From a virus, in the IMG/VR virus record IMGVR_UViG_3300022752_000286, positions 1-29,518 of that record: DNA of 29,518 nt; one strand, 5' to 3'. This document shows, piece after piece, positions 2,740-6,619 of the stretch. A program made the translations under genes and the position numbers. Each line of letters starts with the position of its first letter. Position 1 is the stretch's first letter. The notes below the pieces were generated by a model. It made no database searches. It saw only the letters and a list, made by a program, of their open reading frames with translations, and had not been told where the DNA came from.

Positions 2740-2797
2740 ATGTGGATGTAATGGTACAAAAAAACCATCAGTAATTATAAAAAGACCTAGAAAATAA
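2732..2797 (+). CDS. Cys-containing basic micro-ORF, 21 codons
   Basis: An ATG at 2732 opens a 21-codon frame that begins MHKCGCNGTKKP and ends with the basic run IIKRPRK. The start overlaps the last codons of the gp14-like gene. The stop (TAA, 2795-2797) shares its last A with the ATG of the membrane-protein gene at 2797. Start/stop overlaps at both ends, with no other gene in the gap, argue that it is translated. The CxC pair plus basic tail could bind a metal or nucleic acid, but no family is assigned. Confidence 0.45.
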   Translation: MHKCGCNGTKKPSVIIKRPRK

Positions 2798-3129
2798 TGG
2801 AATATTTATTTTTATCATTATTAATTGGGTTTTGTTCAGCCCAATTAACTAAAGTATTGGATTTTTCCTTCAATGAAGGAAATATTCTTGATTGGTATTA
2901 TATATTTTTATTAAAATATGTAGAACCAATATCTAAAAAATTAGCAAAACCACTTGGAACTTGCATTAAATGCTTTTCCGTATGGGTTTGTTTTCTTGTT
3001 TTTGGAATTTTTTTGATTTTTACAAACATTCCTTGGTTCTATATATTTCTATCTCAAGGAATTAGTGCTTATATAATTTACATATGTGAGCGTAAAGCCC
3101 ACTCATCACGAAGTGTGGGTGGGATGTAA
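2797..3129 (+). CDS. Membrane protein with PLGTCxxC motif, tail altered by an IS insertion
   Basis: Residues 1-15 are hydrophobic, and two further hydrophobic segments lie at about 60-78 and 79-96, predicting three membrane helices. A conserved-looking PLGTCIKCFSVW segment (residues 52-63), with paired cysteines facing a Trp, resembles small phage membrane proteins of unknown function. The native protein probably ended two residues after Tyr95 (...AYIIY-RE, 97 aa). The mobile element joined after codon 95 (base 3081) replaces that end with a 15-residue foreign tail encoded by the element's left end (ICERKAHSSRSVGGM). It may still function, because all predicted helices are retained. Confidence 0.65.
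   Translation: MEYLFLSLLIGFCSAQLTKVLDFSFNEGNILDWYYIFLLKYVEPISKKLAKPLGTCIKCFSVWVCFLVFGIFLIFTNIPWFYIFLSQGISAYIIYICERKAHSSRSVGGM
3090..3125 (+). repeat. Left-end subterminal hairpin of the IS element
   Basis: The sequence folds into a CCCA/TGGG stem enclosing an unpaired CTCAT and a CAC-GAA-GTG mini-hairpin. IS200/IS605 transposases recognise such imperfect palindromes near each end. The hairpin is read through by the end of the upstream membrane-protein gene. Confidence 0.6.
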
Positions 3130-3214
3130 GCGACCATTTATTCTAATAATTTAATAAAATGTAGAGAAATTTTATATTTTCTTTAAACTTTTTAATTTTT
3201 CTGACTATTTATAT

Positions 3215-4396
3215 ATGATGTTGAAAGCTTTTAAATATAGACTTAACCCTAATGAAGAACAAATTGTTCTTCTTAATAAACATATTGGTGCAAGTAGGTT
3301 TATATATAATTTAGCTTTGGAAACAAAACAAATTGCTTATGCTAGTAATAAACATAATTTATCTTGTTTTGAATTACATTCACAACTTAAAGATTTAAAA
3401 GAAGAATGTCCTTGGTTAAAAGAACTAAATTCACAATCATTACAACAAGCAATAACTAATTTAGATAAAGCTTATACAGCTTTCTTTAAAGGTTTAAACT
3501 CATTTCCTAAATTTAAAAAGAAATCTAATAATGGTAGTTTTAATATTCCACAAAGAGTTATAGTAGAAAATGGTAAATTAATTATACCTAAATTCACAAA
3601 GAAAAATGGAATTGATATAATCTTACATAGACCAATTAAAGGTGAAATAAGGCAAGCTACCATTAGTAGAACACCTACAGGAAAATATTTTGTATCTATT
3701 CTTTGTGAAACTGGTGACCAAAATAAAGATAAATCTAAGATAAAGGAAGAAACCACGATAGGTATTGATTTAGGGATTAAAGATTTTGCTATAACATCTA
3801 ATGGTGAAATATTTTCTAATCCAAAATATTTAAGAAAGGTACAGGATAAATTAAAATATCTACAAAGTAAATATTCTAAAAACAAAGGAAAAAAAACAAA
3901 ACAAAAATTAGCAAAACTACATGAAAAAATAGTAAATAAAAGAAAAGATTTTTTGCATAAAGTATCTACTAAACTAGTTCGTGAGAACCAAACGATTTGT
4001 TTAGAAAATTTGAATGTATCAGGAATGTTACAAAACCATAAATTAGCACAAAGTATTAGTGATGTAAGTTGGTCAACATTTGTATCTATGTTAGAATATA
4101 AAGCTGAATGGTATGGTACGAATATACTTCGTATAGGTAGATTTGAACCAAGTTCAAAAACCTGTTCTGTTTGTGGTAATATTAATAAAGAACTATCTTT
4201 AAAAGATAGAGAGTGGACTTGCACTAAATGTAATACTACGCATGATAGAGATGTAAATGCTGCAATAAACATTAAAAATTTTAGTTTAAGAAATATCTTG
4301 TCAGGAACTGACAGGAAAAATCATGACGAACTGCCTACGTTAGTAGGAGTGATGACTCATGAAGCCCATCCCATCGGCTATGCCGTGGGTGGGTAG
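3215..4396 (+). CDS. tnpB: TnpB RNA-guided endonuclease (IS605 OrfB family), 393 aa
   Basis: TnpB proteins are RNA-guided DNA nucleases related to Cas12. They help IS200/IS605 elements persist by cutting the donor or empty site. The N-terminus has the family signature (KAFKYRLNPNEEQ). The RuvC residues appear intact: Asp185 in IGIDLG, Glu264 in CLENL, and Asp346 in DRDVNAAINI. The zinc-ribbon cysteines are Cys317, Cys320, Cys336 and Cys339. Its 393 residues fit an intact family member. Two ATGs occur in tandem at 3215 and 3218, and family starts (MLKAF) favour the second. The C-terminal codons run through the right-end hairpin, as expected when the omega RNA overlaps the 3' end of the gene. 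It appears functional, not decayed. Confidence 0.93.
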   Translation: MMLKAFKYRLNPNEEQIVLLNKHIGASRFIYNLALETKQIAYASNKHNLSCFELHSQLKDLKEECPWLKELNSQSLQQAITNLDKAYTAFFKGLNSFPKFKKKSNNGSFNIPQRVIVENGKLIIPKFTKKNGIDIILHRPIKGEIRQATISRTPTGKYFVSILCETGDQNKDKSKIKEETTIGIDLGIKDFAITSNGEIFSNPKYLRKVQDKLKYLQSKYSKNKGKKTKQKLAKLHEKIVNKRKDFLHKVSTKLVRENQTICLENLNVSGMLQNHKLAQSISDVSWSTFVSMLEYKAEWYGTNILRIGRFEPSSKTCSVCGNINKELSLKDREWTCTKCNTTHDRDVNAAINIKNFSLRNILSGTDRKNHDELPTLVGVMTHEAHPIGYAVGG

Positions 4397-4420
4397 TTCA
4401 CAGAGAATAAATATCTCTAG
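4290..4420 (+). ncRNA. Probable omega RNA (reRNA) with guide from downstream flank
   Basis: The 3' end of tnpB contains a chain of hairpins: a perfect 6-bp stem TGTCAG-GAA-CTGACA (4299-4313), CCTAC/GTAGG (4334-4338 with 4342-4346), and the right-end palindrome (4365-4393). This arrangement is typical of the omega RNA scaffold that TnpB processes from its own mRNA. The guide is known to come from the sequence just past the right end, which here begins at 4402 with AGAGAATAAATATCTC. The 5' boundary is uncertain, and the guide length (about 16-20 nt) is taken from the family. Confidence 0.55.
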
Positions 4421-4796
4421 CATCATATTTTTTTACATACATCTTAACTAGTCTACCTGCAATAGCATTTGCAGTATCCTCTATCTCACCACCAATATCA
4501 GGTATATTACCCTTAATTTTACCTTGTAAATCTTGTTTCTGATGAACAAGTTCATGTGCTATTGTTCTAATAACATCAGCTATCTGTCTACCCTCATATA
4601 TAACATATATACATTTATCCGATGGGTTATAACCACCTGTTGTTATTTCTAACTTGTTTTTTCTTGTTAATAAAAATACTCTTATGTCATTTGTTATTTT
4701 TAAATTGCTTCTACAAAATTTTAAAAAATTTGATAAATGCTTGAACTTTAAAGGACTCAAACTGTCTATCTTTTTTGAATAAGAAATCTTAATCAT
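4398..4796 (-). CDS. Small HExxH metallopeptidase-like protein, 132 aa
   Basis: The protein carries a zinc-metallopeptidase motif HELVHQ (His81, Glu82, His85) and a downstream GGEIEDTANA segment (residues 102-110) in which Glu104 or Glu106 could be the third zinc ligand, as in gluzincin-type enzymes. There is no signal peptide, so it probably acts in the cytoplasm or in the virion. Its stop codon (TGA) is now supplied by the end of the IS element. In the reconstructed empty site the same last codon is followed by TAA, so the protein is unchanged. A promoter-like motif lies 6 bases upstream of the ATG, and a terminator separates it from the capsid gene. The substrate is unknown. Confidence 0.75.
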   Translation of the reverse strand: MIKISYSKKIDSLSPLKFKHLSNFLKFCRSNLKITNDIRVFLLTRKNKLEITTGGYNPSDKCIYVIYEGRQIADVIRTIAHELVHQKQDLQGKIKGNIPDIGGEIEDTANAIAGRLVKMYVKKYDARDIYSL

Positions 4797-4800
4797 TTTT

Positions 4801-4812
4801 ATTATAAATAGT
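4801..4812 (-). promoter_or_regulatory. Putative late promoter motif for the metallopeptidase gene
   Basis: On the minus strand the core CTATTTATA (4811-4803) is followed by ATAAAA and then the ATG at 4796. It follows the capsid-gene terminator, so the peptidase gene would be an independent transcript. Read on the plus strand, the core is TATAAATA, the T4 late-promoter sequence, but no gene follows in that direction. Confidence 0.45.
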
Positions 4813-4852
4813 TAAAAAAAAGGGGTGGAATAAATCCACCCCCTTTATTTTT
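4813..4852 (-). terminator. Rho-independent terminator after the major capsid gene
   Basis: An 8-bp perfect GC-rich stem, GGGGTGGA (4822-4829) with TCCACCCC (4835-4842), encloses a 5-base loop. On the minus strand it is followed by a run of eight T. It lies 26 bases past the capsid stop codon. An AT-rich tract also follows on the plus side, so it may terminate in both directions. Confidence 0.88.
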
Positions 4853-4867
4853 TTAATTTAAGTTAGA

Positions 4868-6619
4868 TTAGTTAATCGTATCTAACATAAATTCAGCAGG
4901 TGAAGCAGTTGGTAAACCATTTACAAGCACCTTACCATAGAACCTGTTGTTAACGACTTTCTTCGCATAACGAGTCATAATACCCATTACAGGCTTGAAG
5001 TCAGCAGGGTTAATGGTTTTTGGCATAAGCATCAACGGTACATATGGAGCGTAGATGTAACCTGCGTGGAAGATTGAATCACCTTTGTGTCCTACAAGAA
5101 CAACACCACTAGGAGCATAAGCATCAACATATACTGTGTATCTGTTAGCTACAGAACCAACTTTCTCAATACCTAAAGAGAACTTAGTTTCTTCAGCAGA
5201 AGCATCAGAAGCATGGAAGTACTCAAGGTCATTAAAAACAGCAGCAATTTCAGGAGAACATACAACCCAGTTTGCACCACCACGAAGAGTGAATTTCATG
5301 ATACGAGCAGAGATTTGGTTAATCTTAGTGATTAACTCTTGGTTGTAATCTTTACGAGTAATTGCAAAACCTGCACCAACATTGTTAAATCTTCTGTCAA
5401 ATGCAGCATAATCCCAATATTCAACATGTGAAGCAGACTTGCGAAGGTCACGAAGGATTTCACGGTCAATTTCACCTGATACAACCTCAGAAAGAAGTGC
5501 AGTTAATTCAGCTTCAACATCAATTGAGTGGAAAGCATTAACGTCTTGCTGAAGTTCAGGAGTGAAGGTAGCACCTAACATTCTTTTATCAACAGACACA
5601 TCGATAAAGTCGAAAGTGAATGTTACTTGAGGAATTTCAGCATCTTCTTCTAAGTTAGAATATTCTTTCCAACTAGCAATAAGGTTAGCAGCAGTAAATT
5701 GAGCAGCAGACCTTAAACCTGTAGTTGTACCTGTAGCATAAGGATTGTTTCCATATACAGTACCACCACTTACAGGTGAGTTAAGAATTAAGTCAACAAG
5801 GATGTAATCATTTCCTTTAGCAACCAATTCTTTTCCATAAGCTTGCATTGGAAGTCTAAAAGGAATTGGGTCACCTGCTGCAATGATAACAGAACCATCA
5901 GCTTGAGAAGTTAAAGCAGAAGATGCGGTAACTTTCAAACTCATTAAGAATGTTTCAGTATCAATGATTTGACCTGAAGGACCTTGTAATTTACCTTCGT
6001 TAGTAGTGCTAAATCCTGATATTTTAATCAAACATCTTTGAGAACCATTTGCACCACCTGGACTACCTGAAAGGATTTGAGCAGCAGCAAAAGACCTATT
6101 AGTAATTCTACCTTTAGTTCTATCAAAAAGACCACCAATATCATCAAAATCACTTCCGTTATTGTAGAAAGAATCATACAATGAAGTGGTTTGATACGTA
6201 GTTTTGTTAAGATTTGTAGCAGCATTACTGTATACACCATCAAATGTGGTATGAGCAGAAAAGTTAGTACCTGTTCTAACAGAGATTTTAGGGTTAATGA
6301 AATACAAACGACCAATCGGCATGTTCATAGCCTGAACAGAAACGATTTCATTTGCAAGTAATTTTTGGAAAACACGTCTAATGATTGGGAAAGCAACTGT
6401 CTCAAATGAACCTGAAGATGTAGCATCTGTAGATTCGTTAATGAGATAAGAAGCTTGGTTCTCATACAATTGAGCAATGTTTTCAGCCATGTGACCTTCA
6501 AGGCCATCAAGCAAGCCAAATTGATTCCATTTTTCAGTAATCAATTCACGCTGTTCACGAAGTTGGCGGTATTCCTGACCAACTTTTCCTGAGTTAAGGA
6601 TTTCGGTAATTCCGTACAT
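4868..6619 (-). CDS. gp23: Major capsid protein (T4 gp23-like), 583 aa
   Basis: This is the main shell protein of the head. The N-terminal third carries the gp23 pattern: MAENIAQLYENQ (about residues 44-55), a Ser/Thr/Gly-rich stretch, then FPIIRRVFQKLLANEIVSVQ (about residues 77-96), which matches the RRV-PKL-ANE-VSVQ signature of T4-type capsids. T4 gp23 has an N-terminal propeptide removed by gp21. A similar cut could fall near LINE-STDATSSG (about residues 58-69). Codon use and base composition are less AT-biased than in the neighbours, as expected for a highly expressed gene. It is the last gene of the head operon and is followed by a strong terminator. Confidence 0.95.
   Translation of the reverse strand: MYGITEILNSGKVGQEYRQLREQRELITEKWNQFGLLDGLEGHMAENIAQLYENQASYLINESTDATSSGSFETVAFPIIRRVFQKLLANEIVSVQAMNMPIGRLYFINPKISVRTGTNFSAHTTFDGVYSNAATNLNKTTYQTTSLYDSFYNNGSDFDDIGGLFDRTKGRITNRSFAAAQILSGSPGGANGSQRCLIKISGFSTTNEGKLQGPSGQIIDTETFLMSLKVTASSALTSQADGSVIIAAGDPIPFRLPMQAYGKELVAKGNDYILVDLILNSPVSGGTVYGNNPYATGTTTGLRSAAQFTAANLIASWKEYSNLEEDAEIPQVTFTFDFIDVSVDKRMLGATFTPELQQDVNAFHSIDVEAELTALLSEVVSGEIDREILRDLRKSASHVEYWDYAAFDRRFNNVGAGFAITRKDYNQELITKINQISARIMKFTLRGGANWVVCSPEIAAVFNDLEYFHASDASAEETKFSLGIEKVGSVANRYTVYVDAYAPSGVVLVGHKGDSIFHAGYIYAPYVPLMLMPKTINPADFKPVMGIMTRYAKKVVNNRFYGKVLVNGLPTASPAEFMLDTIN

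Follow-up and report, generated by a model that had tools for sequence, protein, structure and literature searches.

A tnpB-only element in a T4-like phage fragment, with borders and guide start read against empty sites in related phages

The 29.5-kb virus record IMGVR_UViG_3300022752_000286, whose full 29,518 nucleotides are called the window here, is a fragment of a T4-like phage. Within it lies what is very probably a tnpB-only element of the IS200/IS605 type, which would have inserted as a single strand 3′ of the pentamer TTTAC and be retained at its site by a probably active TnpB nuclease and its omega RNA. TnpB, omega RNA and this mode of insertion are known biology; the most useful new facts are real empty alleles in related phages, most of them without the motif. 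With about eight distinct empty junctions for comparison, the border, motif, scaffold and guide of a TnpB carried by a phage are readable to the single base. The features of the element are as follows.

3082..4401, plus strand: whole element, IS200/IS605 type, tnpB only, 1,320 bp, placed by empty sites in relatives and conserved ends in sister elements.
3077..3081, plus strand: TTTAC insertion-site motif, presumed target-adjacent motif (TAM), with the same pentamer at the left border of seven other independent insertions.
3092..3130, plus strand: left-end hairpin (CCCACTCATCAC..GTGTGGGTGGG), DNA fold of −9 kcal/mol (z −2.2), in a left-end block conserved in sister elements.
3215..4396, plus strand: tnpB, 393 aa, with the domains HTH_OrfB_IS605, OrfB_IS605 and Cas12f1-like TNB (PF07282, PF01385).
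4277..4401, plus strand: omega-RNA scaffold overlapping the 3′ end of tnpB, with two stems, a long-range stem and a right-end hairpin, ending in UUCAC.
4402..4421, plus strand: presumed guide AGAGAATAAATATCTCTAGC, derived from the flank; unrelated sequence follows TTCAC in sister elements.

Joining base 3081 to base 4402 reconstructs an empty site in which TTTAC is followed directly by AGAGAATAA. In this joined sequence the plus-strand gene on the left ends SAYIIYRE-stop and the minus-strand gene on the right retains its 132 residues, its stop codon changing from TGA with the insert to TAA. The initial annotation had regarded these two clean stops as strong evidence for the borders; by themselves they are weak, and relatives and sister elements carry the argument. 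We scanned IMG/VR with the minus-strand gene, which gave 35 loci, and used 13 of them (L001 to L013) at 53 to 86% identity. An uninterrupted left neighbour ending in IIYRE-stop, with the predicted insertion point between Tyr and Arg, was present in 11 of these 13 relatives, including L013, which was counted despite a broken upstream frame (8 of 80 residues in frame, 37 of 60 positions in the DNA). The remaining two have an unrelated left neighbour gene (L004) and a different gene end (L005). The 11 empty sites amount to about eight distinct junctions, as L002 equals L003 and L008 to L010 are near-identical. In L011 the empty site reads TTTACAGAGAGTAAATA, which is the reconstruction with one difference (ATTTACAGAGAGTAAATA). 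The search for phages lacking the insertion, proposed along with the initial annotation, has thus turned up the predicted junction tail, and two of its deductions hold: the left-hand gene of the 11 uninterrupted relatives has the Ile-Ile-Tyr-Arg-Glu-stop ending, and in the joined sequence the minus-strand gene loses no residue and ends in TAA.

By itself, the empty-site comparison leaves three registers (3080 to 3082 with 4399 to 4401) because AC is present at both borders. The register 3082-4401 was chosen because the right end GTAGTTCAC is conserved among sister elements, and the borders first proposed are accurate to the base, with the relatives' empty sites and the sister elements' ends in agreement. 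TnpB relatives were collected from 45 viral loci and the best 80 of 100 loci from bacterial or archaeal genomes; right ends were inspected in 35 of these 125 loci and left ends in 32, each set with the window added. The window's right end, ...GGGTAGTTCAC, finishes at 4401, and GTAGTTCAC recurs in 32 of the 36 rows, followed by unrelated sequence, the exceptions being L071 (GTAGTCCAC), L073, L079 and L080. TTTAC immediately precedes the left end in nine rows (window, L054, L058, L059, L060, L061, L062, L064 and L099), or eight independent insertions including the window when L059 and its twin L060 are taken as one; from base composition, the chance of this pentamer at a given position is about 0.0025. 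TTTAT takes its place in seven rows (L063, L065, L066, L072, L079, L100 and L102), which represent six insertions with L063 and its twin L065 counted once, and by eye also in L080. The left end of L055 is truncated, and the left-end motif, which may miss some, was unmatched in 15 rows (L056, L057, L067 to L071, L073 to L078, L095 and L101). When the flanks of L064 were joined by the same rule, a 147-codon frame crossing the junction resulted. Border, motif and guide start are accordingly well supported by these sequence comparisons.

Both ends of the element have subterminal palindromes in the form of hairpins conserved in sister elements, and the sister left flanks and the empty sites show insertion 3′ of a fixed short motif without target duplication, both as in the IS200/IS605 family. 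Its tnpB-only organisation is what we take to be the IS1341 type. As a separate observation, L056/L057, L067, L068, L069 and L071 have a window-like right end and scaffold and no left end matched by the motif, and these copies may be immobile; the tnpB of L056 contains one internal stop.

The three Pfam domains of TnpB were recognised with E values of 4e-25 to 3e-16. A phmmer comparison aligned its residues 4-358 with the homologous ISDra2 TnpB of Deinococcus radiodurans (PDB 8bf8, 8exa, 8h1j; E 1.8e-69 for 8bf8/8h1j), RuvC residues included. The RuvC triad, D185, E264 and D346, is intact and the zinc-finger cysteines are present. The triad aligns with D191, E278 and D361 of ISDra2 TnpB, the numbering of the last two having been confirmed by counting in the alignment. 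The report PMC8612924 is presumably that of Karvelis et al. D191 is named there as a catalytic residue of ISDra2 TnpB. The ratio of nonsynonymous to synonymous substitution rates (dN/dS) over codons 1-355 lies between 0.10 and 0.17 in six comparisons (0.13 against L054, 0.17 against L055), indicating that TnpB is under purifying selection, and the nuclease is probably active. One could instead imagine a domesticated regulator resembling TldR, TldRs being nuclease-dead relatives of TnpB. With an intact RuvC triad and both transposon ends present, such a role is extremely improbable, and we rejected a dead nuclease of this kind on the triad.

The folding energy of the element's final 125 bases is −46.2 kcal/mol, whereas shuffles give −27.6 (z −5.6). 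Among 18 aligned right ends, the readily alignable ones of 24 (L072, L077, L080, L086, L098 and L102 were excluded before counting), 29 pairs form in 96.9% of cells. Changes on both sides affect 18 of these 29 pairs, in 72 cells against 21.8 in shuffles, none of 500 being as high. Sliding the partners lowers pairing to 36-48%, and the slid structures give three to seven cells with both-side changes; of the five measures one, further pair types, was unremarkable, with 106 of 500 shuffles reaching the observed value. These stems fall within the tnpB reading frame, and over codons 356-393 the synonymous rate (dS) falls to 0.12 from 0.51 in codons 1-355 for the window versus L054, and to 0.16 from 0.63 versus L055. 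Selection acts on the RNA scaffold as well as on the protein. Sequence comparison reveals the make-up of an omega RNA: a covarying scaffold that ends in UUCAC, then variable sequence.

On the model of SisTnpB7, the guide would start at 4402 with AGAGAATAAATATCTC... and be about 20 bases long. TTTAC would serve as the TAM, a role assigned from ISDra2 and SisTnpB7. The position of TTTAC at the left and of a guide copied from the right flank, as first annotated, is supported by the ends, the sister elements and the relatives. The guide does match the empty site, but any TnpB element would show such a match because of its layout, and it adds no independent support. In ISDra2 too, a target pentamer lies left of the element and the guide comes from the right flank (PMC8612924), but the pentamer is TTGAT there and TTTAC here, and the present element has tnpB only, is carried by a phage and has no tnpA in its record. 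The IS605-type element of Sulfolobus islandicus that encodes SisTnpB7 shares the right-end TTCAC and has a similar TAM, TTTAA; its guide starts right after UUCAC, and a target flanked by TTCAC is not cut (PMC11043419). It differs in residing in an archaeal chromosome and in a TAM that ends in A, where the present motif ends in C.

Several points weigh against this interpretation. The TAM assignment derives from the insertion site, and specificity may be TTTAY or shifted because sister elements use TTTAT. GTAAA, which precedes the left-end hairpin, is complementary to TTTAC, but this pairing is perfect in just three of the eight TTTAC insertions (window, L054 and L058). For the genes reconstructed at L064 and L059, the search for empty sites gave no independent uninterrupted relative spanning the junction, L193 matching residues 14-67 only and with a different start. 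The shuffling control for the scaffold can be exceeded through relatedness alone, although the slid structures fall short too. No Rfam family matched the omega-RNA stretch, the four Rfam matches in the window up to E 1 all being under gathering scores and none on the element. Finally, no Y1 transposase was found in the window's record, a 29.5-kb fragment. We also considered whether the left guide box covaries with TTTAC or TTTAT and dropped the idea, as the pattern was not clean.

A divergent Y1 tnpA lies upstream of tnpB in the sister loci L063, L065, L066, L072 and L074, so that tnpA-bearing and tnpB-only forms with similar ends coexist in the clade. It is therefore plausible that the tnpB-only form is moved by a transposase acting in trans. 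The four loci that combine a divergent tnpA with a recognised left end (L063, L065, L066 and L072) all have TTTAT. Another locus, L189 (1400-3190 of IMGVR_UViG_3300004805_000021), is an IS605-type element with TTTAT, the left-end hairpin and tnpA on the minus strand; here a 277-aa open reading frame replaces the N-terminal two thirds of tnpB. By eye, the encoded protein has Cys-rich repeats and a PD-(D/E)xK-like tail, and Pfam gave nothing above cut-off. What is left of TnpB is a C-terminal remnant of 132 aa, and the right end still has TTCAC. L189 is perhaps a homing endonuclease that has invaded a TnpB element.

We propose that the window's element entered the T4-like phage as a single strand, transposing to a point immediately 3′ of TTTAC where two convergent genes overlap, with little damage to either. 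It encodes a probably active TnpB together with an omega-RNA scaffold that overlaps the end of tnpB, and the phage DNA on the right would supply the guide. TnpB would then cut TTTAC-linked empty-site copies, whether sister chromosomes after excision or rare co-infecting relatives that retain the motif; such cutting would hold the element at its site and could lead to its being copied through recombination. Passive insertion, in which TnpB is no longer useful in the phage and the element is a recent arrival bound to decay, would agree with the absence of a transposase from the record and with a single phage carrying the element at this site. Against this stand the open frame, the intact catalytic residues, the low dN/dS, the constrained scaffold and the intact ends, although selection was measured between elements and is hence no proof for the window copy; we consider passive insertion unlikely.

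The initial annotation had further proposed that the nuclease cuts phages without the insertion. At the motif position, 10 of the 13 relatives carry TCTAT, one TTTAC (L011), one TTTAT (L004) and one ACTAA (L005), and the guide has one to four mismatches in 20 across the 13. Only L011, with two guide mismatches, and L004, with one, look targetable, and few of the known relatives agree with the proposal. Exact TTTAC plus guide occurs in no stretch of IMG/VR, and a looser IMG/VR scan, for TTTAY plus a guide with mismatches at positions chosen so as to admit L004 and L011, gave no contigs beyond theirs. A TCTAT target might be weak rather than dead, since SisTnpB7 is more sensitive to the −1 than to the −4 position, the latter having little effect (PMC11043419). 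Nor does TCTAT need a selective explanation, because Tyr is usually encoded by TAT in the window, at 252 of 293 codons over the 16 genes counted; given this usage, we do not claim selection on the TCTAT state.

These data bear on whether the element is a homing element, its TnpB acting chiefly, during mixed infection, to cut phages that have an empty site and so bring about copying of the element into that same site. The idea that TnpB cuts the empty site and returns the element, much as in intron homing, has been proposed for ISDra2 TnpB (PMC8612924). Mears et al. 2025 demonstrated by experiment a TnpB gene drive of IS200/IS605 in plasmids (PMC11870625), which follows the same logic of cutting copies without the insertion, whereas the present case concerns a phage and is known from sequence alone. 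Similarly, the homing endonuclease gp210 of phage PhiPA3 is carried by a phage and harms a relative in co-infection, but its specificity is encoded in a protein within an intron and is not RNA-guided (PMC11620839). Judged by titles and abstract openings, we found no published description of TnpB homing or co-infection in phages. An extension of homing to phages in mixed infection is reasonable, and nuclease and scaffold look maintained; the sequence evidence is mixed. Apart from the prevalence of TCTAT, a pattern search with the right end plus flank found no second phage with the element at the same site, and none of 17 related records, many of them fragments and the window's record not included, carries the TnpB. 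The nearest TnpBs, those of L054 (89%) and L055 (86%), are at other sites in other phages, whose records of 141 and 163 kb have no Gp23 match. Such a distribution resembles transposition from phage to phage, with retention at the site, and not site-specific spread, and homing as the main role is possible but doubtful. The one same-site candidate, L179, was a chance match to the right end and flank in a GC-rich contig, with no element there.

A more elaborate version would make the element an RNA-guided homing drive acting among T4-like phages in co-infection, with synonymous TCTAT (Ile-Tyr) as a drive-resistant allele that persists because the target motif is absent, and with the TTTAC and TTTAT relatives as what remains of the susceptible pool; we consider it very unlikely. 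The two relatives with near-matching targets nevertheless make homing or exclusion by TnpB between phages concretely testable.

The window's origin is indicated by the Gp23 major capsid gene at 4871-6619 on the minus strand (Pfam, E 6.5e-68), and the top tblastn rows include immuto-group Flavobacterium phages (36% identity). The nearest annotated phage DNA covers just 18-31% of a 2-kb query at 64-68% identity, among the 20 of 31 records listed. The genes flanking the element are the following.

2797..3129, plus strand: left neighbour gene, 110 aa as present and 97 aa without the insert, then ending ...SAYIIYRE.
4398..4796, minus strand: right neighbour gene, 132 aa, with a HELVHQ motif; its stop codon is now part of the element.

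The insert swaps the last two residues of the left neighbour for 15 element-encoded ones; this gene had no confident match in Pfam or PHROG. Nothing in Pfam was above cut-off for the right neighbour, for which the HELVHQ motif alone suggests a metallopeptidase-like protein. Between this minus-strand gene and the capsid gene, a strong terminator-like hairpin with T-runs on both strands is present at window positions 4810-4857 (GGGGTGGA..TCCACCCC), from which the weak, sub-threshold Rfam matches in the window stem.
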